Assembly: GCA_001599355.1 (NCBI GenBank)
Contig: BCGQ01000004.1
Span: 131,249 to 195,248 of the forward strand
Source of the DNA: Nakazawaea peltata
Taxonomy: Eukaryota; Ascomycota; Pichiomycetes; Alaninales; Pachysolenaceae
Direction of reading: 5' to 3'
DNA length: 64,000 nt
Each line of letters opens with the position of its first letter. The stretch's first letter is position 1. The notes beneath the pieces were generated by a model. That model did no database searches and was not told the origin of the DNA. It saw only the letters and a program-made list of their open reading frames with translations. Position numbers and translations under genes: made by a program. This document shows positions 12,943 to 56,139 of the stretch, piece by piece.

Positions 12943-13315
12943 TAGAGATACAGTTATAGACAATTCATATTTATATACATGACAACTTTGTTGTCAATTA
13001 ATATACTACTTATAGATCTATTAAAAGTAATATCATCGGATGCTGTGTGATTTTTTCCTTCGCATTTTCACGATCTCCGATTATCAGCTTTTTTCCCTTT
13101 CTAGTCTGTGTCAAAACTGCAATTCTGCGCTAAAGCTATGCAACGCAGGAACTAAGATTCATAACGTTATATTTAAAACAACGCTGTCACAAATATAAGA
13201 TTCACAAGTTTACTTTGCTTTTCTATAAATACTAAAAACAGGGTGTGATTCTTAGAGAGTTATTGGAATCCTTAACAGAAAGCCAGGTTCAAAGTAGTTT
13301 TTGCTATTCGCGAGG

Positions 13316-14079
13316 ATGTCCTATTTTAGCTTTCCACCTGTTCCACAGCCAGATCTCATGGATCATATTCTCGAGGAAATAATTAGCTTCCTAGATATCA
13401 ACATATACAAAGTCTGCAGCTCAAATGACATAGATTACGCTGACTTAAACTACCAGATCGAATCTTATATACCGGTATGTACCTCCTTTGCAGCAAATCT
13501 GAATGATACTAACAAGAGCAGCGATTGAATGAAGTGCAGAGACAGGAAGCGCTAACACTGGAACAGGCCATTGTTCTTAAAGACATTTACAACAAAACTC
13601 ATATATTGGAAAATCTCATAGAAGAGAGAAAAATGTTGAAGGAGGACTTGAATATTCTAAAAAATGCTTACAAAGAGAATTTGGATATTAAGGGGGTGCA
13701 GGAACAATTTGATGAGAGTGATTCACCACCGCAATGCACCAGGGATCCAAATAACAAAATAGTAACTTCAAAGACCAGTATTTTAGAGGAGTGGTAAGTA
13801 CTTTCAAATATTTTAGATTTTGTCGTTTATCTGCTAACACTCCCCAGGTTCAAAAGTCACATAGACAGTCCATATCTAAAGAGAATTGATACTGATACTC
13901 TTGTGAATACGACAGGTTTATCACCAAACCAAGTGCGCAATTGGTAAGTAAAAATTTCTATTAGCACATACATACAAACTTCTATTTCTAACACTCTTAG
14001 GATGGCGAATAGAAGAAGAAGGCTGAAGAAACAATCTATTTCTGAAGATATTCTATCTATATTATCTCCAGACGTATGA
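13316..14079 (+). CDS. MATALPHA2: MATalpha2, TALE-type homeodomain mating-type regulator (4 exons)
   Basis: Spliced from exons 13316-13474, 13522-13793, 13848-13943 and 14001-14079, giving 201 residues (S. cerevisiae alpha2: 210). The homeodomain lies at about residues 130-186. It has the three-residue loop expansion of TALE proteins (EEWFKSHIDSPYLKR, residues 142-156) and a recognition helix LSPNQVRNWMANRRRR(A)KK ending at about 186, with Trp176, Asn179 and Arg180. The final segment QSISEDILSILSP matches the alpha2 tail. Exon junctions restore the frame exactly, two of them within the Trp codons of WF and NW. Alpha2 represses a-specific genes with Mcm1 and haploid genes with a1 (family knowledge). 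The loop expansion distinguishes it from MATa1. The first in-frame ATG was chosen over an upstream TTG. Confidence 0.9.
13475..13521 (+). other. MATalpha2 intron 1 (47 bp)
   Basis: GTATGT donor, perfect TACTAAC branch site and AG acceptor 9-10 bases after it. Removing it joins codons CCG|CGA and bypasses an in-frame stop. Confidence 0.85.
13794..13847 (+). other. MATalpha2 intron 2 (54 bp)
   Basis: GTAAGT donor, TGCTAAC branch site and CCCCAG acceptor. It splits the Trp codon of the homeodomain motif EEWF. Confidence 0.88.
13944..14000 (+). other. MATalpha2 intron 3 (57 bp)
   Basis: GTAAGT donor, TTCTAAC branch-like site and CTTAG acceptor. It splits the Trp codon of the recognition-helix motif NWMANRR. 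Confidence 0.88.
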
Positions 14080-14283
14080 AAACAAGAGACGCTCCTGTGT
14101 CAAATATGTTTTGATGCGGAAGGAAAAAATATTTTTTTTTACGGTGCCTCTCCTTTTTTGAGCCTCAAAAAGTATCCCTTTTTAAAAAATAGAAGGAAAT
14201 AACTGGTCCCTGAATTTTGGTTCAAAACATTAATTTAGCTAGTCCAATGAATTAATAATAAGTAGAAACTGATTGATTGAACA

Positions 14284-15060
14284 ATGAATAGGAAATCAAA
14301 GCATTCCTGGAGGTCTGCACTCAGACCTGCCTTCAGAGCGTCTTCGAATAAAATACGCCCTAAGAAACAATTATCTACAAAACCCAATGCAGCACCTTTA
14401 CTTCAAACTTTCAGCGTATTTTCCACTAAAAGTTTGCCACTGATACCTATCCCTGGTAAGGAACTTAAATTGTTTCTTGAAAGCTTGAAGAACTCGAAAG
14501 AAAGTATGTGCCACTTGTGTTCTCAGAAGAGGTCCCTCCTGAAAACAGGAGCGAAACCTAGGAGAATCAGGGGTAAGATCAATGGGTTTATAGCTTACAG
14601 ATGCTATTATTCAAGAATCAAACGTGACGTAAAAGGACAAAGAGATGCATCTGTTCTGTTAGCAGAGTTTTGGAAGAATGAATCAGAATCAGTAAGAAGT
14701 GTATGGGATAGGTACGCAATAGAATATGGGCGCCTGAAGACCTCATCAGCTTTCCTGACTTGGCTTGAAACTTCAGTTGGTTTGAATCAACAAATCCGAT
14801 CATCCTCTCAGAGTCATAAATCTGTTTCTTATAAGCAGCTCTGTCAATCATGCCGAAAAAACACTAAGCATGGTGGTGAGAACTATGATCCCGGTACTAC
14901 TATTGATTTTATAGTCGATAACGATACTCAGCGCACAGTTGTATTTGGGTCTTACTTGAATATGTTCTTCGCTAAAAACGAAACCGAAGCTATGGCTGAC
15001 CCTGCTAATTTCAGCGACAATAGGGGATACGACGATTCAAAAAACTATTTCATGACCTAA
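14284..15060 (+). CDS. MATALPHA1: MATalpha1, alpha-box (HMG-like) mating-type activator
   Basis: 258 residues. The alpha-box lies at about residues 97-150: 'KINGFIAYRCYYSRIKRDVKG' and 'VLLAEFWKNESESVRSVWDRYA', matching the NSFMAFRSYYS...LLAxxW...WDxxA pattern of yeast alpha1. It is preceded by a basic N-terminus. A CxxC (CHLC, residues 76-79) and another Cys pair lie outside the box and are not characteristic. Alpha1 activates alpha-specific genes together with Mcm1 (family knowledge). It lies 204 bp downstream of MATalpha2 on the same strand, and its end is 123 bp from the convergent SLA2 end, so both alpha genes occupy the DIC1-SLA2 interval. Intron-less. Confidence 0.92.
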   Translation: MNRKSKHSWRSALRPAFRASSNKIRPKKQLSTKPNAAPLLQTFSVFSTKSLPLIPIPGKELKLFLESLKNSKESMCHLCSQKRSLLKTGAKPRRIRGKINGFIAYRCYYSRIKRDVKGQRDASVLLAEFWKNESESVRSVWDRYAIEYGRLKTSSAFLTWLETSVGLNQQIRSSSQSHKSVSYKQLCQSCRKNTKHGGENYDPGTTIDFIVDNDTQRTVVFGSYLNMFFAKNETEAMADPANFSDNRGYDDSKNYFMT

Positions 15061-15183
15061 AATCTTTGCCATTTTATGTTGTTACCAATATTTACTTATC
15101 GTTACAATATTATTGAAGGTATGAAGCACGATCCAGAATTTTTTTTCTAAATAACATCATCTTTTCTTACATAATCTATACAT

Positions 15184-18100
15184 TCATTCTTCATCTGAAT
15201 CATCATCCTTATATGAATACTTCCTAATCTCTCCTAATCTCTTTCTCAGCTTATTCAAGAGATTCTCCAATTTCAAAATCTCAACTTGTTGTTCCATTTC
15301 AACCGTCTTATTCTCATGAAGTGACAATTTACTGAAATCGACATCATTCTCAACAGAGTGTCCATTTTGTTGATCAAGGATCAGATGTACTTGAGACACA
15401 AGCGATTTACACAGTTGAGTAACAAGTTTAGACAGTTGCTCTAATTTATCTTGAGTCTTGGATCCAAGTGACAGTTTAACTCTTGAAGCCAGAACTAATT
15501 GCAGAGTAGAAGCACTGACATCATTCGAAGCGACAATCAACTCTTCCAAAGTACTATCTCCCTTGATAACACCATCCAGAGTTTGGATCATAACTGTAGT
15601 GGAATACAGAACCAGTTTCAGCAGAGAAATCAACCCTTCGGTCCATCTATTGTTCTTCTTGTAGAACTGAGTTCTGGACTGTTCTCCTCTGTTCTTTTGG
15701 ACGATCTCTTCTTGAGATTCCGTCAGCAGTTGAACAAGCAGTTGAATCAGAGTCGTAATCAGAAGCAGCAGTGATAAGATCAGTCCATTGACGCCAGTGA
15801 CGTCAGCTGTAGTGTCCAACAGTTGTTGTTGTTGCAAATGTTTCAATTGTTCAACCAGTTTAGTTACCAGTTGCAGAGCATGGCTCATTTCGAGTTCAAC
15901 CAGCTCAGCTAAATCACCAGCATTACCACGGATACCTCCACGTCTCTTTGAGACGATGTTCTCAACCTTCTTACTCAACTCTTGTAACAGTTCTTGAACG
16001 TTCAAATTGGATTCGATCACGATATCGGTCTTCTCGTCAATACCAAATTGGCCTAAAGAGGAACTCAAAAGTTGGTTCAAGAATTCTTCACTTAATTCCA
16101 GTGACCAACGAGCCAAACCGAGCAACTGTTCCAGTTCCAATTCCAGTTCCAAACGAGCAACACCACGAATATCTCCTAATAAAGCAGCAATAGCACCAGT
16201 GAACTCATTGATAGACTGAATAATCGTACTATAATCACCACCATCTGGGCCATCGGCAATGAAATCATTGAATCCGGTAGCGAAATCGGTGGCCGAGTTA
16301 CCGGCTTTCTCGATGATCGACAAATAGACCTCTGGAGAAGCCGAGTTATGTTGTTGCTGTTGCAGGAGCGGAGAATCCAACTCATAAAGAGAGTCCTCAA
16401 TACGTTGAATACCACTCTTCAAAATGGCATCGATAATCTCGGTCAATTTGGATTCAAATCCAGAGGAAGTTCCAGCTGCAGCTAATTCTTTGATCAGTTC
16501 ATCCATAGTCTGTTGCATAATCTCAAGCTCTTCATCTTTAGCCAGTAATTGTTGCTCAAATTGCAGGATTTGAGCAGCAGCCAGAGCACCTCCAGCACCT
16601 CCCAGAGCTGCTTCTTCAAGCTCACGTTTGTGAGCGGCAAAGATGCTGGTCAAATTGGACAGTTGCAGACGTTCAGTCTCGTCCAATTTCAGCTGAGTGT
16701 CACGTAAAAGCAATTCCAAACGTTCGATCTCACTGTTCTTACCACCTTTCAAACGGTCAAGGTCCAAACGAGCTCTGTCACGCTCACGAATCAAATCGGC
16801 CAACTCAATGTTCTTCAGTTTCATTTCTTTCTCTAATTTCTCTCTCTTTTCGATCAGTTCTTGAGCAGAGGCGGACTTCTGTTGTAATTTCTTGAATCTC
16901 AGCAACAAATTCAAATGCTCTTGACGTAATTGAGAGTACAATTTAGCCAAAGACTCGTACTTCTTGTTCCAAACATTGACTTGTTCTTGTAATGAGGCAA
17001 TGAGCTCATCTTTGGAAGCAATTTGCTGCTGCAGAGCCATCGTAGTAGAGGACTGTTCTTGCTCCAATTGCTGAACTCTTTGATCATATTGCTCGAGCAT
17101 CAATTGATCCTTCTCATATTGTCCACGTAAAGCCAAAAGATCCCTCTCAAGCTGAGCTACTTTACTGTTAGCAATCCCAGTCAGTTGCAGTTGTTGCTGT
17201 TGCAATAACAGCTCTTGAGCTTGACGTTGTAACAGTTCTTGCTCTTGTTGTTGTTGTAACCAATATTGCTGTTGTTGTTGGTGAAGTTGTTGTTGCTGTT
17301 GGAGTTGTAATTGACGTTGTTGTTCAAGTTGTTGTTGCTCCAACTCAAGCTGCTGTTGTTGTTGAAGTTGTTGTTGGTTCCAAGAGTCGTTGGAGATATC
17401 AGGAGTAGCCGCTGGCTCAGGTGCAACAACTGAAGACAGACGAGTAGATCCAGCTTCTCTTGGTGTACTACCATTCTCTTCATCTGGACTAGCTCTCAAG
17501 TTTGGAGCATCCATACGCAATTTCGGAATCGTAATTAAACTGGTCAAGTACTTAATCGAACTACAATCAGCATAAAACTCGTACAATCTCGAATGCTGCT
17601 GAGTATACTTATCAATAAGAGGTTCCAATACTTCGGGATCGGCCGAAGTCTTATACATCAGACGCATCATGGAGGTGATGAACTTATAGATCCCGTAACT
17701 CTCCAGTACTAATGGCACCAAGGCGGAGATTCTGCATTCCGAACCACCTGGAGTCAATCCGGCCAAAATCAAACGCTGTAAATCATCGATCAGATCTTGT
17801 AATGAGAGTAAACCAACGATCAGATCATAACCTTCATTTGGATCACTGACAGTTCTAAGAGAAATGTACTCCTCGTACTCGAAAGTACCATTGAACCCTC
17901 CATGGTATCTATGGAAGTCCAATTTCTTCAAAATGTAGTTGTCGTATTCACGGATTAAACGTGAATTGGAATGTTCTCCATGAGAGATCCGGCCCAAACT
18001 CTCGATCCACGAGTATTCACGGAGAGCACCCTTGATTACGGATGGGTGACCTTCTTGGATGACCTTGTGGATGACAATTAACAGTTTGAACAACTTGACG

Positions 18101-18270
18101 TCGTCGTCCTGGATGGGCAACACCTTCAATCCATCCCAAAATGGGCGCGAGGATTTATGGTCCCAAGTGAACACGATACAAGCCCGGACGTGTTTACGTT
18201 TAGGAGCGGAATTATCGGCGGAGCAGGCCTTTTTTAAGCTCACAAGCAAATCGGATTCGGCTCTTGACAT
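15184..18270 (-). CDS. SLA2: Sla2, endocytic actin adaptor (Hip1R family)
   Basis: 1028 residues. Residues 1-280 form an ANTH domain (SDLLVSLKKACSADNSAPKRKHVRACIVFTW, then PFWDGLKVLPIQDDDVKLFKLL). About 290-373 is an irregular polyglutamine/Leu tract, 375-620 a long coiled coil, and about 780-1000 the talin-HAT (I/LWEQ) actin-binding module (NRWTEGLIS....ASNDVSASTLQLV.ASRVK). Sla2 links clathrin-coated-pit membrane and actin (family knowledge). Four CTG codons at forward 15607-15624 fall where the module reads AAKAVA, and the heptad-rich C-terminus only makes sense with CTG as Ala. SLA2 flanks MAT in most Saccharomycotina and anchors the locus identification. Confidence 0.96.
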   Translation of the reverse strand: MSRAESDLLVSLKKACSADNSAPKRKHVRACIVFTWDHKSSRPFWDGLKVLPIQDDDVKLFKLLIVIHKVIQEGHPSVIKGALREYSWIESLGRISHGEHSNSRLIREYDNYILKKLDFHRYHGGFNGTFEYEEYISLRTVSDPNEGYDLIVGLLSLQDLIDDLQRLILAGLTPGGSECRISALVPLVLESYGIYKFITSMMRLMYKTSADPEVLEPLIDKYTQQHSRLYEFYADCSSIKYLTSLITIPKLRMDAPNLRASPDEENGSTPREAGSTRLSSVVAPEPAATPDISNDSWNQQQLQQQQQLELEQQQLEQQRQLQLQQQQQLHQQQQQYWLQQQQEQELLQRQAQELLLQQQQLQLTGIANSKVAQLERDLLALRGQYEKDQLMLEQYDQRVQQLEQEQSSTTMALQQQIASKDELIASLQEQVNVWNKKYESLAKLYSQLRQEHLNLLLRFKKLQQKSASAQELIEKREKLEKEMKLKNIELADLIRERDRARLDLDRLKGGKNSEIERLELLLRDTQLKLDETERLQLSNLTSIFAAHKRELEEAALGGAGGALAAAQILQFEQQLLAKDEELEIMQQTMDELIKELAAAGTSSGFESKLTEIIDAILKSGIQRIEDSLYELDSPLLQQQQHNSASPEVYLSIIEKAGNSATDFATGFNDFIADGPDGGDYSTIIQSINEFTGAIAALLGDIRGVARLELELELEQLLGLARWSLELSEEFLNQLLSSSLGQFGIDEKTDIVIESNLNVQELLQELSKKVENIVSKRRGGIRGNAGDLAELVELEMSHALQLVTKLVEQLKHLQQQQLLDTTADVTGVNGLILSLLLLITTLIQLLVQLLTESQEEIVQKNRGEQSRTQFYKKNNRWTEGLISLLKLVLYSTTVMIQTLDGVIKGDSTLEELIVASNDVSASTLQLVLASRVKLSLGSKTQDKLEQLSKLVTQLCKSLVSQVHLILDQQNGHSVENDVDFSKLSLHENKTVEMEQQVEILKLENLLNKLRKRLGEIRKYSYKDDDSDEE
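17150..17400 (-). repeat. Polyglutamine-coding low-complexity tract in SLA2
   Basis: About 80 codons dominated by CAA/CAG Gln with interspersed Leu/His/Tyr, visible on the plus strand as TTGTTG/CTGTTG runs. It also yields an Asn-rich spurious frame. It is a likely site of length variation between strains. Confidence 0.85.
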
Positions 18271-25852: not shown

Positions 25853-28800
25853 TTACAAGAAACTCATCCATCCAATATACATTTGCAGCAAATTCTCAAC
25901 CGACGTGGCCTGAGCTATTAACAGATCCACATTAGCAGGAACACTCAAAGATAAACTAGTATCTGATTCGATACCTCTAATCTTCTTCTTGATATGATTT
26001 AAAATCAGTTCCGGAGTGTAATTTCCATCTTTACGGTGACGCCGTTTGGAGGTCGACCAATCTAAAATCGGATCATATAAGAAACTCTCTAAAATGTTCA
26101 TTAAGACGGTCTCATTATTACGGATCAAAGCCATAGTGACCTCACATGCTTTACGGAACACACCTTCAACACCAGAAATTCCAAACAGATCCACCATATT
26201 GGCTGTCAATCTGAATGGAACCCTCTCGGGAACAGCCAAAGTAAGACCTTTGTCAAAAAGACAGTCAAAATCAACATGTAAGACCCCTCCACTACGTTCC
26301 ATCATTAATATATTGTCCATATGTCTATCTCCCAAACCCAAGATATGTCCTACAATTGACATGACCAGAGATGAACGTGTGAAAGTATTACGAGCAACGT
26401 ACCAGGATTTAGGATCTGGGAACTCCTCAAGGAACCATAATCGGAACACAGGCGGATATTTTTCACGGATCTTTGTGAATCCTTCAATCTTTTGGTCGAC
26501 GCTCTTGTCATCTGCTAACTTCTTTTTACAATATCCGAAATCTATTGGATTTCCCGTGGTTACGAGATAATTTAAAATGATATCTCTGATGGTCCGGCAA
26601 CGATCAACCCACTCAATAATACCATACGTCTCGTTCAAAGGAACTACGGCATAAGTGGAGATCTGAAGATTACGTAACTCACTGGCATCATCCTTGTGCA
26701 ACAATTTATCGATCATAGTGGTTACCTCCATTAATTTGGCATCCTTTCTCAAGTCATCATGTGGTTTACATAAGATTTTATAGATCCCACCATCACTACC
26801 TTTGATGGTCAAACGACGAGGCTTTTGCATCGAAGTCAAGATCTTAACCCGATCATCAATTTTATATATGGTAATTCTAGATCCAATCGGGTATGAAGTG
26901 AATCGTTTAGAGACCATTGATTGGTCGAAGTTAGAGGCCAATTTGATCTCGAAATTCTCTCTCAAAGGAACTACTAAACTATCACAAGGAGTCACCAGAT
27001 GATCGAATCCGAAATCATCTTTAAGGTTGAGATCGGTTGATTTCTTGTGAACCTCAGTCATACATACATTAAGAAGAGAATCAAACACTACAAGAGCCTT
27101 CTGAAGCACAATCTTAGAATCCAGATCAAACCCAGAAACAAGTTTAAGAATATGTCCTCCCATTTGCAGTCTCAGCTTATTAACCGATTTAGATTGCAGC
27201 ATAACACTCCATAACAGTTGCTGTGGATACTCATGAGTGATCTGGGCAATGATATCGAGGAGCATTTGCTGGATTTCAGCTCGAGGATGTACCATTCTAC
27301 TCGTCAACTGCGAGAATACTGAATACCAGTATACTTTAGGTGTGGCCGCAAAAACTTCTTTCACACATTGTCTCATCTGTTCGTAATTCTTCTTACGACG
27401 TGATAACACACTGCTAGATTTATAAGCAGCCGGAGTCTCGGTATAAGTGGCCGAGAAATCCAACCAAATTGTTATCACTTTACTCAATACTTCAAGCACA
27501 TGAGTATCACCAGTTTTGACCAGTCGTAAATAATTGAATACTAATCCCTTCTCGTAATCTCCATAGTAATCTTTCTCTGTTTGAATATCATCATTCCGAC
27601 GCTGTAAAGTCGTCTCTAAGATCTTGTTATAGTACTTTCCAAGGGCATAATACGGTTTATCCCATTTAGGGTCAAGTTTCTGAGCCGTGATATACTCCTC
27701 AATAATCTGTTCTGAGCTACCAGAGTCCGACAGATCAAGCCATTCAGTATAAATCAATTGGATATTCAGCAGCGAATGATTGGTCAGAACTCCACTTGTA
27801 TTATTTGATGCTCGAAGCTCACTAATCAGCTTTAAAGCTCTTCCATGATCATCTTGCGCCCACAAAAGTTGCAGGTACTCCAAATCGACTTCACGATGAG
27901 AATCCAGAAGAACTAAAGCATTCATAATCAGTTTCCTGGATAAATCGAGTCTTGAATGTTCTCTCAGAGTCTCTGCTAATTTCAACCAGACGCTTCCAAT
28001 GTCAGATTTAGTGAACAGTTGAGGATGCAAATCGGTGACTACTCTTCTCATCATCAAGATCTGCCATTTGGACCTGAAATCACGAGCTGTATTGGCGAGT
28101 CGAAGATTCAAAGTGTCCACAGTGTGACGGAATCGAGTCTCATTTGAGTCGTCGATCTGTACCAAAAGCTTCAGCTCTGCAAGCCAATGCAACTGACTCA
28201 TTATGTCCCTCGATTTAGAAACCGAGATCTGTCGAGTCATAGCAAGTGAGTCTGACAGTAACCGGATAGCATTATCGATATGATTGACAGCTGTCGAGTG
28301 TTGGGAGCTCAGTAAGTTCACAAGTGCTTTAGCCACATGATAATTGATAAGTAGTTTGTGATCATTAACAAGAGGCAGAGACTCAAAAGTGTAGATCCAA
28401 TGCTTGATGGAGGTGAGGTCTCCACTGAAGATGGAGGAGTTTAAACCTAGATCTAGCCATTCAGTTGGGATGGCTGGGGGTTGGACTAAACTCAGGGCCA
28501 CGGCCAGACTCAGACTCAGACCCAGACCTTGACCCAGAACTCGCTCAAGTCTACTTAAACAACTCTCATGTAAATGATGCTCATTCAAACTTCTCAACAA
28601 ATTTGTCGTATTCTCATGGTCATCAACCTCAAATTTACTCAACAGCTCATAACAATCTTGCAGTGTCTTCCAATCTTCACTATGTTGGAACTGCAATATC
28701 TTATCTTGTAAACTCTGAGTTGAGAAGTTCTTAAGTAAACCATCAAGTGAATCTAAGTCATCAATCTCAACATACATCGATTGAATTGTATTAAAGAATT

Positions 28801-31800
28801 CACGAGGTTCCATCAGTGATGATCTATAACTCTCTTCCAAATTAAGGATCAGTCTTTCATAGGATTTACATTGAGCAGAACGTTTGGCAATTAATTCTCT
28901 TGGGAATTTGAGTAAGAATTGTTCAACTGTCTTGAAATGAGAGTCCTGTCTCTTGAACTTTTGTTTTCTACTGGAATTCCATTTCTGTAAATAGTCCAAA
29001 ATACTGAAGATCGATTGGAAACAAGCAAGCAGCTCCTGGCTAAGAGACTCTACATCAAGTTTGAGAATAGCCATGATCTCCGTCTCGAGCAGAGATCTCA
29101 TTTCACCACTGGTGAGGACACAATTGAGCAGGATATAAGGAAGAATATAATTACAGATCAGAAGATCTTGATCCTTGATGATCGATGAACAAATAGAGAA
29201 GATAGCATCAGAAGAAGACAGTGACGACCCCCCAGTTCTACCTCCTCTCTTTAATAAATCAAGTGTAAAAACTCTCAACCAAGTGGAGTGCTTCAAGTCC
29301 AGCTTGAAGATCGGATAGGCTATCAGTTCCTCCTTAGATCCATTCACACTATATTTGGAGCTCAATAATGGTAAGATTGTCGATTGGGAAATACGACTGA
29401 ACTTTTTCCAGATGATACTACTAGTTGAGTTTTTCTCCAAATAGTTGGATCCATCCAAATTCAATAACTTCAAATACTCTTGGATCAGATACAGCAAGAA
29501 CAACTGCTTGACAGGGTCACTGGAGGCCCAGAACAGAGGTACCAACACTACGTTAATGAACTGGATTAAAAACCTGTACACTTCATTTGGATCTTCAAAA
29601 AGTTTGATGTTGATTAATTGGTCCACTTGTTGGTCATCCAATTGTAAGATCTTATTGAAGTCCAAGAGTCCGATTAACCCATAGATCACCGAACATTTCT
29701 CGCCGATACGACGATCGAGATTCTTGAATTTGATCGAGATATTAAGAAGATTCGAACTTAAACGAGGAATGTACTTGACAAATGTTGGTAACCTAATGAA
29801 ATTGGCATGGAATTCGTCTTGATATTTCACAAAGTAATGTATCAAATCATCCAACAGTTGAAGTACTACAAATTTGTTGTCATTGGTACAACGCATGGTC
29901 AAGTCATGAAGTAAATGGAACGAAGTCGATTTGGCTGTAGTTGGGAATAATCTCACAGCATCATTGTAGATTGACTCAAGCTCCAGGTTGAATGAGAAGC
30001 TGAAGAAGTAATGGAAATATCTCTGTTTAAAGATGGTATCGAACTTGGTCATTAAGTAACTTAAGAGAGTCTTACAACTCTTCTTACATTTGGGGCTGAA
30101 CTGGCTCCATTTCTGAAGGATAATAGAGATGATAAAGTCCAGGATGATGAACATGGTCTCGGTGTCCATTTGCTCTGAGAGCAGAGAAAGACAGTAGAGT
30201 GTTTCGAGATGGAGATGGGAGAACTCGAGGTTCAGTTGGAGACAGGTCATGATTTGGGGTAAACAAGTCACAATGTCATGTTCACAGATTAATATAAGAC
30301 AATCAATGGCCCATATGGATTTCAATTTCTCAATATAAGGTTGAAGTCCCTTGAGATCGTAAGTGGATTCCGAGAAATTCTGTACGATTCCAAGAATAGT
30401 CCGGTTGAGGAACCGTTTAAGTTGAGCTACAGAGTTCACTGAGTTCCCACTAGTCGGTGGTTCGTACAACTGCAGAACGCACATCAACAGAGAACGAATA
30501 TTAGCCATATTATCGAACTCAGGTGAATACAATTTCAAGATCTCCCAGCAGGTCAAGATATGATTATCGACTAAATCATGAAGAGATTGATTTCTGAATG
30601 AATCATTGATATTTCCTAAGATCTGGATGATTTTCAATTCATTAATACGACTATCAAGAGTCAATAAATGCAGTAAAACTCGAGGAAGATTACGCTTCAC
30701 AAGTTCATATTTGGATACTTTGAGCAGTTGCAGTATTTCCCCAACTAAATCATGTTTGTAATAAGTAATCACATGAGGAAGAGTGTATTGTTGGGTCCGT
30801 TGAAGAAACACTTCAGTTGAAACACCAACAAGTCCACAGATTTTGCCCATAATCATCGGTTTTGATTTCATTTGTTTGACGATGATCACACTGAGATGGG
30901 GTAAGAATGGAGAAAGCAATTGCCAAGGAGTTTTACGTTTCAGAGCTGAGATAGTTTGGAGTTGATGGAGCAGAATAGCCGATTGAAATTGACTTTCAGA
31001 CCCCACGTAATCTATAAGTTTGACTAAGATCAATACGAGTTTTTCATCCACTCCAATGACCATCAGAAGTTCACTCCACAGGACCACTGTGGCCTCAGCA
31101 AGATGTGGATAGGCTCCAATGTCTATTTGTTGTAAGAAGAGGAGGATCTGCTTGAAATTTGACTCATAAACCTCGTCATCCTCTACTGTGAGATAGTATG
31201 GGATGATCTTTGAGACGAGGAGTCGGATTTCCCGAACATCACTGGAGAGAAGTTGCTTGAGAAGAGGGAAAACTGGGCAATTTTGCAGCAGAGATGATGG
31301 AGAATACGATGCAAAGACTCTTCGTACGTTAATGAGAGCAGTCAGGAGGATGACTGGGTCATCCAAATGGGATTTCACTACTTCACAGATCGAATCGAGA
31401 GCTTGTGACACGACCGGATCCGAACTAATAGTTGGACGTCCTGTTTGAACTATCGAATTAATATAACAAGTGTCGTTGAGTTGTAAATCACATCTGGAAC
31501 AGTACTCATCTGGTTTCAGATCACCACTTTTCAAGCACAGAGATCTTCCTAAATGATTAAGATTGGAAAGGATAGATAGAGGGGTACCGTCTGAAGATAT
31601 AGGGACGAGATAACCATCCGTTCCGGGAGTATTATGAGACGCCTCACCTTCAGACATAATATCAAGTCTAAGTGATTCCATATCAGGGTCAGGAAATGAA
31701 GAATATGCCTGAATTTTAACCAAAGTCGGCTCAATACTAGAAGGAATGATAATGCAGAGCAGTTTTATAAGACCAATCTCATATTGAGTGCCATCTTTAA

Positions 31801-32653
31801 GCTGATCCACTACTAGAGACCCTTCTAAATGCAAAGATTTGATGAATTGGGCCCCCTCAGACACTCTTAACTTCATTAATACACAACCCAATACATTCTG
31901 AAGCTCTGAAAGTTGCGATAGACCTTCAAAATTGAGCAAATTCAAGCATTGAGTAGTCACAAATCGAAGCTTAGATCCACTCCGGAACTCATCCTTCTCA
32001 TAATTAGTGAACATCGAGAATAAAAGTACAGCCATTACGCCATCAAATTGTGTAGACCTCATTAAGACGAGCCAAAGCTTCCTGATGATGGAATCCAATT
32101 GGTATCGCAGCCGATCTAGATGAAGAAGGGTGTAGAGTTTGTAATCTTGGAGGATCTGAAGGAGATGGACGGTGATTTGGGATCTCTGTAAAGAAGTCGA
32201 GTCAAAAAGACCATCCACTTGAGACTGTAGAAGGGTCATAAATATCCTCAGTAAGTCGGCGCGGTTCTTCAACGTGTTTCGAGTCCCCTTATAAGGAGTT
32301 ATGAGCGACTCTACGACCAGAATTAAGGTCAATTTCAGCTCTGCCACTGTCTCGGCGGAAGCGCCGAAGAACAGAATTAATGACTGGAGGACAGTATCGT
32401 CTTTCAATGGAATGGTCACAGCGCGGTCTTGTAGAAGCACTCTGATAGCGCGTAGAACCTTTCTCAGCACCTCAGGCTCACCTTCCCCTCGACTAAATAC
32501 CGGTATCACGTTGAAGAGCAACACGTCCAGCGTTCTTTGCTTGTCAAGAGGAGGGTCAGGGGCCGGCGCGGAGGCGGACGTGGGCACCGCCGAGGCGCTC
32601 CCAAGCTCTAGTATGGAGTCCAATAACGCCACAAGGTCTTTGGATGAGCTCAT
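25853..32653 (-). CDS. MEC1: Mec1, ATR-family checkpoint kinase
   Basis: 2266 residues (S. cerevisiae 2368). The N-terminal two thirds are HEAT-type helices, followed by a FAT region (about 1250-1800), a PI3K-like kinase domain (about 1930-2200) and a C-terminal FATC (NLLQMYIGWMSFL). Kinase motifs seen are KGSDGGIYKILCKPHDDLRKD, the catalytic loop GLGDRHMDNILM and metal-binding VDFDCLFDKG, followed by VPFRLTANMVD. The last matches Mec1/ATR (VPFRLTPNxxD) and not Tel1 or Tor. Mec1 with Ddc2 senses RPA-coated DNA. A CTG run near residues 1378-1392 (forward about 28480-28525) becomes Gly/Ala/Ser-rich under CTG=Ala. One long uninterrupted frame. Confidence 0.95.
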   Translation of the reverse strand: MSSSKDLVALLDSILELGSASAVPTSASAPAPDPPLDKQRTLDVLLFNVIPVFSRGEGEPEVLRKVLRAIRVLLQDRAVTIPLKDDTVLQSLILFFGASAETVAELKLTLILVVESLITPYKGTRNTLKNRADLLRIFMTLLQSQVDGLFDSTSLQRSQITVHLLQILQDYKLYTLLHLDRLRYQLDSIIRKLWLVLMRSTQFDGVMAVLLFSMFTNYEKDEFRSGSKLRFVTTQCLNLLNFEGLSQLSELQNVLGCVLMKLRVSEGAQFIKSLHLEGSLVVDQLKDGTQYEIGLIKLLCIIIPSSIEPTLVKIQAYSSFPDPDMESLRLDIMSEGEASHNTPGTDGYLVPISSDGTPLSILSNLNHLGRSLCLKSGDLKPDEYCSRCDLQLNDTCYINSIVQTGRPTISSDPVVSQALDSICEVVKSHLDDPVILLTALINVRRVFASYSPSSLLQNCPVFPLLKQLLSSDVREIRLLVSKIIPYYLTVEDDEVYESNFKQILLFLQQIDIGAYPHLAEATVVLWSELLMVIGVDEKLVLILVKLIDYVGSESQFQSAILLHQLQTISALKRKTPWQLLSPFLPHLSVIIVKQMKSKPMIMGKICGLVGVSTEVFLQRTQQYTLPHVITYYKHDLVGEILQLLKVSKYELVKRNLPRVLLHLLTLDSRINELKIIQILGNINDSFRNQSLHDLVDNHILTCWEILKLYSPEFDNMANIRSLLMCVLQLYEPPTSGNSVNSVAQLKRFLNRTILGIVQNFSESTYDLKGLQPYIEKLKSIWAIDCLILICEHDIVTCLPQIMTCLQLNLEFSHLHLETLYCLSLLSEQMDTETMFIILDFIISIILQKWSQFSPKCKKSCKTLLSYLMTKFDTIFKQRYFHYFFSFSFNLELESIYNDAVRLFPTTAKSTSFHLLHDLTMRCTNDNKFVVLQLLDDLIHYFVKYQDEFHANFIRLPTFVKYIPRLSSNLLNISIKFKNLDRRIGEKCSVIYGLIGLLDFNKILQLDDQQVDQLINIKLFEDPNEVYRFLIQFINVVLVPLFWASSDPVKQLFLLYLIQEYLKLLNLDGSNYLEKNSTSSIIWKKFSRISQSTILPLLSSKYSVNGSKEELIAYPIFKLDLKHSTWLRVFTLDLLKRGGRTGGSSLSSSDAIFSICSSIIKDQDLLICNYILPYILLNCVLTSGEMRSLLETEIMAILKLDVESLSQELLACFQSIFSILDYLQKWNSSRKQKFKRQDSHFKTVEQFLLKFPRELIAKRSAQCKSYERLILNLEESYRSSLMEPREFFNTIQSMYVEIDDLDSLDGLLKNFSTQSLQDKILQFQHSEDWKTLQDCYELLSKFEVDDHENTTNLLRSLNEHHLHESCLSRLERVLGQGLGLSLSLAVALSLVQPPAIPTEWLDLGLNSSIFSGDLTSIKHWIYTFESLPLVNDHKLLINYHVAKALVNLLSSQHSTAVNHIDNAIRLLSDSLAMTRQISVSKSRDIMSQLHWLAELKLLVQIDDSNETRFRHTVDTLNLRLANTARDFRSKWQILMMRRVVTDLHPQLFTKSDIGSVWLKLAETLREHSRLDLSRKLIMNALVLLDSHREVDLEYLQLLWAQDDHGRALKLISELRASNNTSGVLTNHSLLNIQLIYTEWLDLSDSGSSEQIIEEYITAQKLDPKWDKPYYALGKYYNKILETTLQRRNDDIQTEKDYYGDYEKGLVFNYLRLVKTGDTHVLEVLSKVITIWLDFSATYTETPAAYKSSSVLSRRKKNYEQMRQCVKEVFAATPKVYWYSVFSQLTSRMVHPRAEIQQMLLDIIAQITHEYPQQLLWSVMLQSKSVNKLRLQMGGHILKLVSGFDLDSKIVLQKALVVFDSLLNVCMTEVHKKSTDLNLKDDFGFDHLVTPCDSLVVPLRENFEIKLASNFDQSMVSKRFTSYPIGSRITIYKIDDRVKILTSMQKPRRLTIKGSDGGIYKILCKPHDDLRKDAKLMEVTTMIDKLLHKDDASELRNLQISTYAVVPLNETYGIIEWVDRCRTIRDIILNYLVTTGNPIDFGYCKKKLADDKSVDQKIEGFTKIREKYPPVFRLWFLEEFPDPKSWYVARNTFTRSSLVMSIVGHILGLGDRHMDNILMMERSGGVLHVDFDCLFDKGLTLAVPERVPFRLTANMVDLFGISGVEGVFRKACEVTMALIRNNETVLMNILESFLYDPILDWSTSKRRHRKDGNYTPELILNHIKKKIRGIESDTSLSLSVPANVDLLIAQATSVENLLQMYIGWMSFL

Positions 32654-46417: not shown

Positions 46418-48853
46418 ATGGTGAAGAAGTTGGCAATGTTCAGACATCTACAAGGACTCGGATTAGTTCCTGGAATCTCGAATATCCCAAGAAATCCGGG
46501 TTTTAGGAGGTTATTTTCTTCCACCTCTTATTGCTATCAAGAACTCAAAGATATCGTCTCTATCAGAGATCTAAATGTCAGCTGTATTACCGGAAAGGAC
46601 TACTGGTCGAGGCCTGTATTGCAACCATTGGATATCAGTGTGAATTTGGACACTTCATTCGCCAAGGCAGCTGCAACCGACGATTTGAAGTACTCTTTAA
46701 ATTACGCTACTCTTTCCAGCAATTTGACCAGTTTCTTCAAGCTGAATGAGAATATCAATTTTCATTCACTTGAGCTGATTGGGGATAAATGTTTTGAGGT
46801 CCTTTTCAGCAAGGATAATGGGTCATATGGCGAACAAGGAGAAGTCATCTTGAAAAATAGCAAAGCTGAGATCAGATGTGACCATATTGAAATGGCACAG
46901 AGGAAATCGCTTTCAGAAGATGGGAAGATCCTCCCAAATTCCAAACAGGTGAGGATCAAAGGACTCAGACTCTTGACTATCATTGGTATCTTCAAGTTCG
47001 AGAGATTGCAGAAGCAAATTGTCGACTTGGATATCGAAATTGACTATGATTTATCCAATAAGAAAGCCGATTTTTCTTCCCTGATTGATAGTATTGTTAG
47101 TTATGTGGAGCTGGCCCAATTTAAAACTGTAGAACTGTTGGTGGAGAACGTTGCATATATAGTATTGAATTCTGACCCGACGATCATTAACACCAAAGTC
47201 GGAGTCATCAAGCCCAATGCCATCTTATTCAGTAAAGGTGTTGGTGTATCTGTAAGTAGAAACCGTGTAGATTTGAAAGGTATGGAATTGATTGAGTTTG
47301 AAAGTTCCGAAACCACTGATTCGATCAGTATGCCAAATTTCAACTCGGAGAATGACGTATCGTCTCTGGCCCCAGACACCCCCAAAACCGTCTACATTGC
47401 ATTTGGATCTAACCAAGGAAATGCCATACAAAACATAGAATCAGCTTTAGACCTTTTACCCTCAAAAGGTGTGGAAGTTATTTCGACCTCTTCATTGTAC
47501 GAATCTAAACCAATGTACTATCTTGACCAACCGAACTTCTACAATGGAGTAATCAAGTGTCGCACTACACTTGGTCCCCATGACCTTTTGGAAGCTTTGA
47601 AATCGGTCGAATATCAGGATTTAAAACGAGTAAAATTGATCGAAAATGGCCCAAGATCTATCGATTTAGATATAATTTTGTATGAAGATCTGATCGTCGA
47701 TACTCCCGACTTAAAGATCCCTCATATATCTATGGTTGACCGTAGTTTCGTATTGGCTCCATTGTGTGAGTTGGTTCCTTCTGATGCGATCCACCCTGTG
47801 ACTCTGGAGCCATTTTCTAGACATTTGGATCAAATTCTCCTGAAAGAAGCTGATCCTTCGGTCCAAGAGTCAAGTAAATTGTTAAACTCGGTACCTTTAC
47901 CAAGAAACCGTAGCTTGACCTTCGATACTTTCGATAACCAACACAAAACTTTGGTTATGGGGATATTAAATGTCACACCTGATTCATTCTCGGACTCGGG
48001 CAAGAATTACGCTTTGGAAGATGCTATCAGTACTCTGAAATCCATGATTGCCAGTGGTGTAGATATCATTGATGTGGGTGGATGCTCCACAAGACCAGGC
48101 TCAGAGCAGGTAAGTGAGCAAGAAGAGATTGACAGAATAGTACCTGTGATTAAAGAGATTCGTAAGACTAGTAGTGATGTATGTATTAGTATAGATACTT
48201 ATAGAGCATTAGTGGCCGAGGAAGCTATTCTGGCCGGTGCTGATATCATCAATGATATTAGTGCTGGTCAATTGAGTGAGAGTGAGATCTTTAAGGTGGC
48301 CAGAAAGTTCCAAGTCCCTATAGTAATGAACCATACCAGAGGATCAATTGCCGATATGGCCAAGTTGACCAACTACGAGACTATCGACCTGTCTATAGAT
48401 GTAAAACTGAGAACCAATGGATCAAAGGTATCCAAATTCATCTCCGTGATGGGTCAAGAGTTGTTCAAGCAAATCGAGGTAGCTACCAATGAGTTCGGTT
48501 TACATAAATGGCAGATCATATTGGATCCTGGGATTGGGTTTGCTAAATCGTCGATTCAGAATTTGGAGGTTATTCGTAACGGGTCAATTATGAAGGAATT
48601 GGAGTTTTATTCACCTGAATCCGATTTCTATTTCACATTCCAACGTTTGCCCTTATTACTAGCCCCTTCTAGAAAGAGATTCATCCAAGAGATTGCACAT
48701 ACCAATCCGAAGGAGTCTGAGAAGATGGTTGTTGCGAATTCAGCAGCATTAACTGCTTGTATAGCTTCGGGTGCCGATATTATTCGAACCCATGATTATA
48801 AGGAGTCACAAATGGTGACTCTGCTTGCAGATTCTATATATAAAGGCATTTAA
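46418..48853 (+). CDS. FOL1: Fol1, trifunctional folate-synthesis enzyme (DHNA-HPPK-DHPS)
   Basis: 811 residues. Two dihydroneopterin aldolase repeats lie at about 45-290 (IRDLNVSCITGKDYWSRPV; IKGLRLLTIIGIFKFERL). HPPK follows at about 327-470 (YIAFGSNQGNAIQNIESAL; ENGPRSIDLDIILYED; PHISMVDRSFVLAPLCEL). DHPS spans about 505-805 (LVMGILNVTPDSFSDSGK; IDVGGCSTRPGSEQV; ADIINDISAG; the later GADIIRTHD). All three activities of 7,8-dihydropteroate synthesis are thus in one polypeptide, as usual for fungi. The N-terminus is basic and Ser-rich with FSSTS, consistent with mitochondrial targeting. No missing catalytic motif was noticed. Confidence 0.96.
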   Translation: MVKKLAMFRHLQGLGLVPGISNIPRNPGFRRLFSSTSYCYQELKDIVSIRDLNVSCITGKDYWSRPVLQPLDISVNLDTSFAKAAATDDLKYSLNYATLSSNLTSFFKLNENINFHSLELIGDKCFEVLFSKDNGSYGEQGEVILKNSKAEIRCDHIEMAQRKSLSEDGKILPNSKQVRIKGLRLLTIIGIFKFERLQKQIVDLDIEIDYDLSNKKADFSSLIDSIVSYVELAQFKTVELLVENVAYIVLNSDPTIINTKVGVIKPNAILFSKGVGVSVSRNRVDLKGMELIEFESSETTDSISMPNFNSENDVSSLAPDTPKTVYIAFGSNQGNAIQNIESALDLLPSKGVEVISTSSLYESKPMYYLDQPNFYNGVIKCRTTLGPHDLLEALKSVEYQDLKRVKLIENGPRSIDLDIILYEDLIVDTPDLKIPHISMVDRSFVLAPLCELVPSDAIHPVTLEPFSRHLDQILLKEADPSVQESSKLLNSVPLPRNRSLTFDTFDNQHKTLVMGILNVTPDSFSDSGKNYALEDAISTLKSMIASGVDIIDVGGCSTRPGSEQVSEQEEIDRIVPVIKEIRKTSSDVCISIDTYRALVAEEAILAGADIINDISAGQLSESEIFKVARKFQVPIVMNHTRGSIADMAKLTNYETIDLSIDVKLRTNGSKVSKFISVMGQELFKQIEVATNEFGLHKWQIILDPGIGFAKSSIQNLEVIRNGSIMKELEFYSPESDFYFTFQRLPLLLAPSRKRFIQEIAHTNPKESEKMVVANSAALTACIASGADIIRTHDYKESQMVTLLADSIYKGI

Positions 48854-49350: not shown

Positions 49351-49887
49351 ATGGCATCCGTTTACCCAAGAGCTTGTTACAAATGTGGAGAAGTTGGCCA
49401 CTACGCTGACGCCTGTGAGCAAAATGAAAGATTGTGCTACAACTGTAGACAACCAGGTCACGAGAGTGGAGACTGTCCAGAGCCTCCAAGAGATGCTAGT
49501 CTGAAGCAATGTTTCAACTGTAACCAATTCGGTCACGTTCAAAGTGAATGTCCAGAACCTCAAGGTTCCAAGTGTTACAAGTGTGGTAAGTTCGGTCACA
49601 TTTCTAGAAACTGTCCATCTGGCGGTGCCAGCAGAGGTGGTTTCTCTGGTGCTGGTGCTCCACCTTCCAGAAGAGGTCCTCCAACCACATGTTACAACTG
49701 TGGTGGTCCAAACCATTTTGCCCGTGATTGTCAAGCCACCGGTGTCAAGTGTTACGCCTGTGGTAAGAGCGGTCACATCTCCAAGGAATGTACCTCTCCT
49801 TCTGGCGGTGCCACCAATGAGAGTGTCAGAACTTGTTACGAGTGTGGTGAGACCGGTCACATCTCCAGAGATTGTCCTCAACTGTAA
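49351..49887 (+). CDS. GIS2: Gis2, CCHC zinc-knuckle RNA-binding protein (CNBP family)
   Basis: 178 residues from the ATG at 49351; codons upstream start at TTG. Seven CCHC knuckles (CxxCGxxGHxxxxC) occur in series, for example CYKCGEVGHYADAC, CYNCRQPGHESGDC, CFNCNQFGHVQSEC and, last, CYECGETGHISRDC. An RGG-like linker (ASRGGFSG..PPSRRGPP) lies between knuckles 4 and 5. Gis2 binds mRNAs and associates with translating ribosomes (family knowledge). The last codon is CTG; yeast Gis2 ends CPKA and this one CPQ(CTG), again consistent with Ala. Codon use is strongly biased (high expression). An AAAAATTTTC box is about 145 bp upstream. Confidence 0.95.
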   Translation: MASVYPRACYKCGEVGHYADACEQNERLCYNCRQPGHESGDCPEPPRDASLKQCFNCNQFGHVQSECPEPQGSKCYKCGKFGHISRNCPSGGASRGGFSGAGAPPSRRGPPTTCYNCGGPNHFARDCQATGVKCYACGKSGHISKECTSPSGGATNESVRTCYECGETGHISRDCPQL

Positions 49888-50296: not shown

Positions 50297-52360
50297 ATGT
50301 TGGCCATTACAAACAAATTGAAGCCAAATTTGGTTCACAAATATTTGAAGGCCGGACTCAGAGCTGGTTATCCTGACTTGAGCCCCTCAAGATCAGCTAC
50401 CATAGCCCACTTGAACCCCTCTAGATCAGTCAAATGGTATAGCGACTCAACACAGACTAATTCTACCACTCCAGAGACATCAAAGATCCAATATGACCAA
50501 GTTATAGGTATCGATCTTGGTACTACGAACTCGGCGGTAGCCATCATCGAAGGAGATCAACCTCGTATTCTTGAGAACCTGGAAGGACTGAGAACAACCC
50601 CATCAATTGTGGCATTTTCCAAGGACCAAGTTCTTGTCGGTGAACCTGCAAAGAGACAGGCCATCATTAACCACGAAAATACCTTCTATGCTACCAAAAG
50701 ATTGATCGGACGTCGTTTCCACGACGATGAAGTTCAAAAAGACATCAATAGCGTACCTTATAAGATTGTGGAACATATCAATGGGGATGCATGGTTAGAG
50801 ACTACAGGAGGTGCTCAATACTCACCTTCTCATATTGGTGGATTCATATTACGTGAAATGAAACATATCCTGGAACTAGCATTAACCATTGAAGGGAGTG
50901 AAAAACCACTGAAAATTCATAGTGCTGTAGTGACAGTGCCAGCATATTTCAACGATTCTCAACGTCAGCTGACTAAACAAAGTGGTGAATTAGTAGGATT
51001 GAACGTATTAAGAGTCGTCAATGAGCCTACTCTGCTGCTGTTACTGTACGGTCTTGATAAACAGAACAAAGATGGAATTATAGCAGTGTATGATTTAGGA
51101 GGAGGAACCTTTGATATTTCCATTTTAGATATCGAGGATGGAGTATTTGAGGTCCGTGCTACTAACGGAGATACTCATTTAGGTGGTGAAGATTTCGATT
51201 CTGTATTAGTCAAGTATATTGTAGATGAGTTTGAGAAATCTAGACCTCTGAATGCTGAGAAAATCGATTTATTCGGCGACAGATTACTGATCCAAAGAAT
51301 TAGACTGGCAGCTGAGAAGGCCAAGATTGAACTTTCTCATGTCACTGAAACCACAATTGAGTTACCATTCATCACAGGAAACGAGAACATCTCTATCAAG
51401 TTAACTGAGAAACAACTCGATGATATGAGTCTGCATTTGATAGCAAGAACTGTGGAACCTGTCAAACGTGCTTTGAAAGATGCAGATTTGGAAGCCGAAG
51501 ACATCGATCAAGTCATTTTAGTAGGAGGAATGACTCGTATGCCAAAAATTCGTTCCACTGTAGAAGAATTCTTTGGATTTGCTCCTTCTCATGCCGTAAA
51601 TCCCGATGAGCTGGTCCTGTTGGGTGCTCTGATTCAAGGAGCAGTGCTCTCCGGTGAAGTCAAAGATGTTTTGTTATTGGATGTGACCCCTTTGACTTTG
51701 GGAATCGAGACTTTCGGTGGAATCTTCTCTCCTTTGATACCAAGAAACACCACAATTCCTTGTAACATCAAACAAATGTACTCAACTCTGGTCGATGGTC
51801 AAAACAGTATCGACATCAATGTGTATCAAGGTGAACGTAGTATTGTCCTGGATAACAAATTGATTGGAAACTTCAAATTGACCGATATTCTGCCTCTGCC
51901 TAAAGGTGAACCTAAAATTGAGGTCAGTTTCGATATCGATGCCGATGGAATCATCAAAGTAAAACTGCAAGATAAAGCTACTGGTAAAGATCTGTCTATT
52001 ACTGTGTTTGGAAGTACCGGATTAACTAAATCTGAGCTCGATGCTCTTGTTTCAGAGTCCGCCAAACTTACAAAGGAAGATCTGGATCGTAAACTGTTAT
52101 TCCAACGTATAAGTAATCTTGAGTTGATTTGTTATGACTCAGAACTGGCATTGAATCAATGGGGATCTTTCCTTGAAGATCCTCAAGAGCTGGCTGACTT
52201 GTCACAGTTCATTACCGACTTGAAAGAATTGATTCTGTATGCTAGAGCCGGTAATTTCGATGACGTAAAGATTTTGACAATGCTGCAAGAAGATTTGAAG
52301 GCTCGTACTTTGGAAGTAATCCAAAAGGCCATCAATAACAGCAAGAAACAATCTACTTGA
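50297..52360 (+). CDS. SSQ1: Ssq1-type mitochondrial Hsp70 for iron-sulfur cluster assembly
   Basis: 687 residues from the ATG at 50297; upstream codons begin with TTG. A presequence of about 60 residues is followed by the Hsp70 ATPase domain (VIGIDLGTTNSAV; VYDLGGGTFDISILDIEDGVFEVRA; VILVGGMTRMPKIR) and the substrate-binding domain (LLLDVTPLTLGIETFGGIFS). The IEDGVFEVRATNGD, ELPF and FGGxFSPLIPRNTT segments match Ssq1 better than Ssc1. The C-terminal lid is short. Ssq1 works with Jac1 and Isu1 to transfer Fe-S clusters. CTG codons sit exactly at Ala positions: NEPT-AAALA-YGL (51032, 51035, 51038, 51044) and DEAVALGAAIQG (51611, 51617, 51629). Ssc1 would be the alternative. Confidence 0.85.
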   Translation: MLAITNKLKPNLVHKYLKAGLRAGYPDLSPSRSATIAHLNPSRSVKWYSDSTQTNSTTPETSKIQYDQVIGIDLGTTNSAVAIIEGDQPRILENLEGLRTTPSIVAFSKDQVLVGEPAKRQAIINHENTFYATKRLIGRRFHDDEVQKDINSVPYKIVEHINGDAWLETTGGAQYSPSHIGGFILREMKHILELALTIEGSEKPLKIHSAVVTVPAYFNDSQRQLTKQSGELVGLNVLRVVNEPTLLLLLYGLDKQNKDGIIAVYDLGGGTFDISILDIEDGVFEVRATNGDTHLGGEDFDSVLVKYIVDEFEKSRPLNAEKIDLFGDRLLIQRIRLAAEKAKIELSHVTETTIELPFITGNENISIKLTEKQLDDMSLHLIARTVEPVKRALKDADLEAEDIDQVILVGGMTRMPKIRSTVEEFFGFAPSHAVNPDELVLLGALIQGAVLSGEVKDVLLLDVTPLTLGIETFGGIFSPLIPRNTTIPCNIKQMYSTLVDGQNSIDINVYQGERSIVLDNKLIGNFKLTDILPLPKGEPKIEVSFDIDADGIIKVKLQDKATGKDLSITVFGSTGLTKSELDALVSESAKLTKEDLDRKLLFQRISNLELICYDSELALNQWGSFLEDPQELADLSQFITDLKELILYARAGNFDDVKILTMLQEDLKARTLEVIQKAINNSKKQST

Positions 52361-54714: not shown

Positions 54715-56139
54715 TTAATCAACGGTGATCGTCTTCACATAACTAAAACTCTCAATTCCCCACCTTCCATTGAATCTCCCGAAACCAGAACTCTTCACTC
54801 CTCCATGAGGAAGAGAAGCGTCATCACTGACAGTACCACTATTTATATGGACATTACCACATTTAAGTTGCCTCAGTAATTGGATCAGCTTCAAATGGTT
54901 TCCACTCCAAATACTGGTCTTCAACCCGGCTTGTTCTTCATCACTCAATTTCAGTATAACTTCCTCAGTAGATGAAAATTTACAGAGACCCATCAAAGGC
55001 GAAAAACTCTCAATGGTCAGTATATCCATTTCTGGTGTGATATTGGCCAATATGGCTCTAGGGGCATAATTCTCATGCGAAGATTCTACAGGCAGCTCAT
55101 AGATTACAGTAGCTCCTAAAGAAAGAGCATTCTCCAATAACAGTTTAGACTTCTTCAGTTGCAGCCCATTTCTCTGATTAGGAACACCAATGGCTTTGAG
55201 TTGACCCATAACTAGAGGCAGAATCGTCTCTTTCATACGAGAAACCAGCTCATCATATATACTTTCATGGATATATACTAAATCTGTACACATACAGATT
55301 TGGCCATTATGAAGCATGGCATTGAAGATGGAGTCTTGGAGCAGAGCATCCAAATCAGCCACATCACTATCAATGATAGTTGTATTCTTACCTCCCAACT
55401 CCAAAAGGCAGGGTTTCAAATTCTGACTACAAAGAACACCAATATGACGTCCAATTTCTGTCGACCCGGTGAAGTTACACATCAGGATACGACGATTAGA
55501 AATCAATTTCTCCATGATAGAACCTACGGATTGAGGAGTAGTATGAATTAACTGAACAGTCCCCCGAGGAAGTTCCTCAGCAAACATTTTTACGATAGTA
55601 TAACTGATCTGAGGGGACTGTTCAGAAGATTTAACAACCACAGAACAACCAGCCAGTAACGGAGCAAGGATAGATCTTACAGTCAATATAGCAGGGGCAT
55701 TCCATGAAGAAACACTAAGCACAGGACCTATAGGACATCTAACAACCATATTTAACAGATGTTTGCTATATGCCGAAGTCACAAGGCTACCATTATCCAT
55801 CGTACCCATAAGGCCTACAAAAACATCAAAATTCAGCAATATGGAGCTGAAAAGCACATCACTAAGAGGTTTACAAACACCTATCAGAAACTCCTGAGCC
55901 TTCAATTCCAACTCATTCTCCTCAAATCTCTTCCTAACCTTCTTTAACAGCTCAATGCGATCGTCAACACTCATCCGAGACCAGCTATTGAAGCCCTCGA
56001 ACGATGCCTCACAAATAGGACCAACTTCCTCAGCACTAATCAGCGTAACATCCCCAAGTTTCTCATTATTATGGTCGTAAAACAGATATTCTCCTCCATT
56101 TCCACCACTTTCGCATACCAATTCCACTTTCAAGCTCAT
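54715..56139 (-). CDS. NAD(P)-dependent aldehyde dehydrogenase, benzaldehyde/salicylaldehyde type
   Basis: 474 residues, standard ALDH length. Cofactor-domain signatures seen are SSWNAPAILTVRSILAPLLAGCSVVVKSSEQSP, FTGSTEIG and LELGGKNTTIIDSDVADLD (general-base Glu in LELGGK). The catalytic Cys region reads NAMLHNGQICMCTDLVYI, where family members have GQxC. The tail GGVKSSGFGRFNGRWGIESFSYVKTITV is the typical FGRxxG closing strand. It is closest in feel to the vanillin/salicylaldehyde/succinate-semialdehyde group; the substrate is unknown. Convergent with TGL2, 55 bp apart. Confidence 0.85.
   Translation of the reverse strand: MSLKVELVCESGGNGGEYLFYDHNNEKLGDVTLISAEEVGPICEASFEGFNSWSRMSVDDRIELLKKVRKRFEENELELKAQEFLIGVCKPLSDVLFSSILLNFDVFVGLMGTMDNGSLVTSAYSKHLLNMVVRCPIGPVLSVSSWNAPAILTVRSILAPLLAGCSVVVKSSEQSPQISYTIVKMFAEELPRGTVQLIHTTPQSVGSIMEKLISNRRILMCNFTGSTEIGRHIGVLCSQNLKPCLLELGGKNTTIIDSDVADLDALLQDSIFNAMLHNGQICMCTDLVYIHESIYDELVSRMKETILPLVMGQLKAIGVPNQRNGLQLKKSKLLLENALSLGATVIYELPVESSHENYAPRAILANITPEMDILTIESFSPLMGLCKFSSTEEVILKLSDEEQAGLKTSIWSGNHLKLIQLLRQLKCGNVHINSGTVSDDASLPHGGVKSSGFGRFNGRWGIESFSYVKTITVD

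Follow-up and report, generated by a model that had tools for sequence, protein, structure and literature searches.

Changes in the meaning of a sense codon of nuclear genomes are very rare and, as of 2018, all those known concerned CUG in three clades of yeasts (PMC5951914). One of these, the Ala clade composed of Nakazawaea, Peterozyma and Pachysolen, was assigned by BLAST and mass spectrometry jointly, the latter covering 18 yeasts (PMC5951914). According to passages of two reports, Ala-clade yeasts carry an alanine transfer RNA (tRNA) with anticodon CAG, which arose by anticodon mutation, and alanyl-tRNA synthetase requires no particular anticodon bases (PMC5951914; PMC11415595). Codetta predictions, in the sections consulted, agree for 453 of 462 yeasts with the CUG distribution already established, a CUG-Ala group being among them (PMC8629427), and an excerpt from 2014 still treats Pachysolen as serine-type (PMC4986446). 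The present analysis deals with the meaning of CUG, written CTG in the DNA, in a stretch of 64,000 nucleotides of contig BCGQ01000004.1 (hereafter the window, at its full length), and primarily in its mitochondrial-type Hsp70 gene. CTG behaves like a codon for alanine in the window's genes, the other leucine codons retain their leucine meaning, and the code is one already known, i.e. NCBI translation table 26. The window is almost certainly nuclear DNA of a budding yeast in which CUG is translated to alanine. This yeast most likely belongs to the CUG-Ala group already described (Alaninales: Pachysolen, Nakazawaea, Peterozyma), and the window clearly exemplifies the reassignment of CUG to alanine.

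The Hsp70 gene, designated SSQ1 in the first-pass annotation, may be SSQ1 or SSC1; among solved structures, mitochondrial Hsp70 chains are the best relatives of its product. That annotation had pointed to seven CTG codons in two conserved motifs, all of which do lie in frame 0 of the open reading frame (ORF), just as the leucine of the first motif is indeed written TTA, at 51041 in the same frame. The corresponding columns were compared with bacterial DnaK, using a query translated with CTG as leucine, to avoid favouring alanine, and two peptide patterns devoid of CTG sites; this query was a two-row alignment, a single-protein query having returned no relative. All DnaK counts refer to the best 80 of the 588 relatives listed, which are mostly Proteobacteria and therefore not independent sequences, and a column is considered conserved when a single residue makes up 80% or more of no fewer than 60 sequences. 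Within NEPTAAALAYG, alanine is found in 79 of the 80 sequences at 51032, 51035 and 51044, and in 65 at 51038, where serine accounts for 14. Within DEAVALGAAIQG, it is found in 79 at 51617, in 76 at 51629 and in 24 at 51611, where valine accounts for 56 and where the solved mitochondrial Hsp70 has alanine. Not one of the 560 cells of these seven columns holds leucine. The earlier contention that all seven sites require alanine thus stands for five of them, with alanine in 76-79 sequences and leucine in none, but it is too strong for 51611 and 51038 because of the valine and serine found there.

Extended to all 28 CTG sites of the gene, the comparison yields 1115 alanine, 83 serine and 4 leucine among 1962 lettered cells. 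Seventeen of these sites fall in conserved columns, of which 12 are alanine, 2 glutamate and 1 each proline, glutamine and lysine, with neither leucine nor serine among them. The GCN codons of the same gene in conserved columns (n=21), which serve as a control, give a similar distribution, namely 16 alanine, 2 glutamate and 1 each cysteine, tyrosine and glycine.

Beyond Hsp70, CTG was masked as X in seven proteins of the window, which were aligned to solved structures so that the partner letters could be counted. One alignment was made per gene or domain, i.e. ten alignments for the seven genes, MEC1 being aligned as two queries (up to query residue 1217, then from residue 1300) and the homologues of the aldehyde dehydrogenase being collected at E 1e-40, as E 1e-70 returned nothing. 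The comparison covers 172 of the 463 CTG codons of the 27 ORFs considered, 163 of them with a partner letter and 9 facing gaps. Alanine is the most frequent partner (54 sites), followed by serine (18), isoleucine (11), threonine (9), leucine (9) and others; gene by gene, it faces CTG at 16 of 27 sites in Hsp70, 17 of 42 in SLA2, 14 of 57 in MEC1, 5 of 17 in the aldehyde dehydrogenase and 1 of 8 in the mitochondrial carrier gene. In this respect CTG is not different from the GCN codons, which face alanine at 82 of 201 sites (p 0.16). The other five leucine codons face leucine at 261 of 484 sites (70 of 166 for CTT, CTC and CTA) and serine codons face serine at 114 of 389. When all 163 letters were scored by likelihood with BLOSUM62 profiles for all 20 residues, with assumed background residue frequencies, alanine came out as the best-scoring residue, with ln-likelihood differences of -38.5 for serine, -63.5 for threonine and -104.2 for leucine.

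The ORFs were also scanned against Pfam under translation tables 26 (Ala), 1 (Leu) and 12 (Ser), and 38 domain matches were picked by hand, one per region, the sum excluding matches that overlap with others of their clan, those of WD40 type in two genes, some repeat matches and the lesser ones of lipase type. Over these 38 matches, reading CTG as alanine gains 254.7 bits over leucine and 116.7 bits over serine, the score being better in 32, worse in 4 and equal in 2 against leucine, and better in 31, worse in 5 and equal in 2 against serine. The PF00012 match of the Hsp70 ORF, for instance, scores 753.0 bits with alanine, 728.9 with serine and 695.7 with leucine, and the I/LWEQ domain of SLA2 scores 193.2, 174.0 and 164.0 bits, respectively. 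Most of the excluded matches likewise favour alanine (MreB_Mbl, THOC3, PPR, Lip_C), and some slightly favour serine (zf-CCHC_3, DUF915, Palm_thioest, GRAM); for five of the ORFs, the scan under table 26 produced no match to any Pfam family, and these do not contribute to the comparison. Judged from such sequence comparisons, window-wide scoring supports alanine, and neither leucine nor serine, as the probable meaning of CUG. The CUG-to-alanine nuclear code that had initially been proposed from Hsp70 is thus borne out by the DnaK columns, the seven genes compared with solved homologues and the 38 Pfam matches altogether. In practical terms, about 3% of codons would be mistranslated if the window were annotated with the standard code.

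Under the standard code, CTG would be leucine and the Hsp70 gene a degenerate or odd copy. Leucine does outscore alanine in 4 of the 38 Pfam matches, but this code is contradicted by the Hsp70 columns with at least 80% leucine, none of the 29 using CTG, as well as by the aligned sites, where leucine faces CTG at 9 of 163 against 261 of 484 for the other leucine codons (Fisher p 5e-32); besides, the alanine signal is not confined to Hsp70 since it extends to SLA2, MEC1 and the aldehyde dehydrogenase, and the standard code can be regarded as practically out of the question. A serine reading of the kind found in the Candida group (table 12) calls for closer attention insofar as serine and alanine columns are alike and the former might pass for the latter: serine ranks second in the window-wide tests, outscores alanine in 5 of the 38 Pfam matches and faces 18 of the 163 CTG sites. 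Such a proportion is nonetheless well below that observed at serine codons (114 of 389, Fisher p 2e-6), the ln-likelihood of serine lies 38.5 below that of alanine, and the DnaK cells at CTG sites hold 83 serine against 1115 alanine, with serine the prevailing residue in none of the 17 conserved ones, all of which makes the serine code extremely unlikely. Both the serine and the standard codes were rejected, as window-wide scoring (Pfam bits, ln-likelihood) favours alanine.

Rather than a single meaning, CUG could have a mixed one, mainly alanine with a minor share of serine or leucine resulting from competing tRNAs or mischarging, as described for other reassigned yeasts; competing tRNA genes have been reported for the Ser2 clade (PMC5951914). 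The columns permit a minor share of up to about 0.13 leucine or 0.26 serine, but the best-fit shares are small (0.003 for leucine in an alanine and leucine mixture, 0.048 for serine in an alanine and serine mixture) and CTG occupies strongly conserved alanine sites, so that a mixed reading is very improbable. A CUG-to-alanine change that occurred independently, outside Alaninales, would agree with CTG being far commoner in the window than published accounts of reassigned clades suggest; however, the mating-type (MAT) neighbourhood is compatible with what passages of PMC6692504 report for Peterozyma and Nakazawaea, and the passages of the literature consulted mention no other CUG-Ala lineage, which renders an independent origin very improbable.

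Some observations nevertheless run counter to the conclusion that the window stems from an alanine-reading yeast of the Alaninales. Alanine rarely faces CTG in FOL1 (1 of 8 sites) and never in SPC3 (0 of 4). Among the 38 Pfam matches, seven score best otherwise, namely MATalpha_HMG, MMM1 and BAR_3 with leucine and Cir_N, Pro_isomerase, DUF676 and VASt with serine, by a margin over alanine of at most 2.6 bits, and some of the excluded matches slightly favour leucine (PGAP1, Beta-prop_WDR5, Pyr_redox_3). The alanine and serine mixture mentioned above means that the columns permit some serine reading. The abundance of CTG in the window conflicts with the published rarity of CUG in reassigned clades, and the fit to the Peterozyma gene order is loose because two other genes separate SPC3 from the MAT genes. 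Finally, no tRNA was detected in the 64-kilobase window by ARAGORN, in default or intron modes.

Comparisons of columns reveal what the codon means rather than how it is decoded. As to the mechanism, CUG would most likely be read by an alanine tRNA whose anticodon is CAG and which would be charged by an alanyl-tRNA synthetase indifferent to particular anticodon bases, the ancestral leucine tRNA with anticodon CAG presumably being gone or silent. The alanine identity of a tRNA lies in its G3:U70 pair. These steps are ones that we infer, the window having yielded no tRNA gene; nor did any Rfam family match it when gathering thresholds were applied.

Besides its meaning, the frequency of CTG deserves consideration. 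In the 27 ORFs, located within 265-63998, 463 of 15585 codons are CTG (29.7 per 1000). No other alanine codon is used as often, CTG making up 463 of 1130 (41%) against 307 GCT, 196 GCC, 125 GCA and 39 GCG. It exceeds every GCN codon in 18 of these ORFs; the lowest CTG share of alanine codons, 2 of 14 (0.14), occurs in the zinc-knuckle gene, which has a strong codon bias. Counts of these five triplets in non-coding stretches would predict a share of 27.7%, and the observed one is higher (binomial p 7e-22), in a test that takes codons as independent and counts as non-coding all bases outside the 27 ORFs, alpha2 exons included. CTG is not avoided where homologues have alanine, as it represents 54 of the 136 alanine codons there versus 409 of the 994 others (p 0.78), and in Hsp70 columns with at least 80% alanine it represents 12 of 28 alanine codons. 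The CTG share falls as C-ending two-fold codons rise (Spearman -0.48, p 0.015, 25 ORFs), in one of six uncorrected tests, whose five other proxies gave p values of 0.05-0.25 for four and 0.84 for the fifth; such codon-bias proxies hint that highly expressed genes may use CTG less. No single silent change can lead from GCN to CTG since the codons differ at two positions and, from the code table, conserved alanine sites that are now CTG would have had to pass through valine (GTG) or proline (CCG), or to change at two positions at once.

In the literature, CUG is called rare in a passage where its mean frequency, for three genes of species that have reassigned it, is put at 0.003-0.006 (PMC8084343), and CTG avoidance is described for Serinales and Ascoideales in sections where Alaninales are not named (PMC11540330). 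From the part consulted of another study, five CUG-Ala species were omitted (PMC6701816), and the literature, mostly consulted in passages, yielded no account of frequent CTG use in Alaninales. It is an even chance that, across the whole genome, alanine is written most often with the reassigned CUG, conserved sites included, and above the local non-coding expectation. If true, this would contradict the published picture of a codon that remains rare and confined to dispensable sites after reassignment, and such a high CTG share could reveal how a vacated codon refills.

The features of the window are collected in Table 1. The surroundings of the mating-type genes can be compared with passages of PMC6692504, which place the MAT alpha genes of two Peterozyma species between SLA2 and SPC3, mention MAT alpha only for Nakazawaea peltata and N. 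holstii, and describe 2-kilobase inverted repeats around the MAT of Pachysolen tannophilus. No inverted repeat of at least 30 bases was found in the window with 16-base seeds. On these grounds, the source is likely to be a yeast resembling Nakazawaea or Peterozyma and unlikely to be P. tannophilus. From a taxonomic viewpoint, Nakazawaea and Peterozyma both belong to the family Pachysolenaceae in the order Alaninales; the gene order and the G+C content, 40.2% for the window and 42.3% for Nakazawaea ambrosiae, are compatible with a place in that family. Elsewhere, short imperfect tandem-repeat arrays with units near 11 and 25 bases lie between genes (8918-9110, 60081-60252), and few recognisable genes are present across 32700-39000.

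Table 1. Position and characteristics of the features recognised in the window
Feature	Position	Strand	Remarks
Mitochondrial-type Hsp70 gene	50297..52360	+	uninterrupted ORF, 687 amino acids, 28 CTG codons
NEPTAAALAYG motif of Hsp70	51032..51046	+	written CTG CTG CTG TTA CTG
DEAVALGAAIQG motif of Hsp70	51611..51631	+	CTG at 51611, 51617, 51629
MEC1 (ATR-type kinase) homologue	25853..32653	-	73 CTG codons; aligned to solved MEC1 chain 5x6o
Aldehyde dehydrogenase gene	54715..56139	-	19 CTG codons; 343.2 bits Ala, 329.4 Ser, 322.5 Leu
FOL1 (folate synthesis) homologue	46418..48853	+	14 CTG codons
Zinc-knuckle gene	49351-49887		presumably GIS2-like
CKS-type gene	32945-33253		
244-amino-acid ORF	35203-35937		no Pfam match
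SPC3	9138-9695		some kilobases from the MAT alpha genes
WD40-like ORF			between SPC3 and the mitochondrial carrier gene
Mitochondrial carrier gene	12079-12942		position usual for DIC1 (putative identity); best solved relative an uncoupling protein
Alpha2-like homeodomain gene	13316-14079		spliced, three introns; Homeobox_KN 42.8 bits
Alpha1 gene	14284-15060		
SLA2 homologue	15184..18270	-	52 CTG codons; aligned to solved Sla2 chains
Mating-type alpha locus (carrier, alpha2-like homeodomain gene, alpha1, SLA2)	12079..18270	.	Pfam scans, compared with passages of PMC6692504

Considering the diversity of known CUG codes, the window shares with the CUG-Ser1 code of Serinales (table 12) the reassignment of the identical codon in budding yeasts, but its CTG columns are alanine, not serine. 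With the CUG-Ser2 code of Ascoidea and Saccharomycopsis it likewise has a reassigned CUG in common, from which it differs by CTG being frequent and present at conserved sites. It departs from reassigned clades as depicted in the literature, where CUG is called rare, in that CTG is its top alanine codon. Compared to P. tannophilus, whose MAT has 2-kilobase inverted repeats in the passages available, it differs in that no inverted repeats of 30 bases or longer were found. With the Alaninales, finally, the likeness is twofold: the MAT alpha genes adjoin SLA2, which is compatible with the sections of the group reports consulted, and, as in the CUG-Ala code of table 26, CTG stands at conserved alanine sites with the other leucine codons unchanged.
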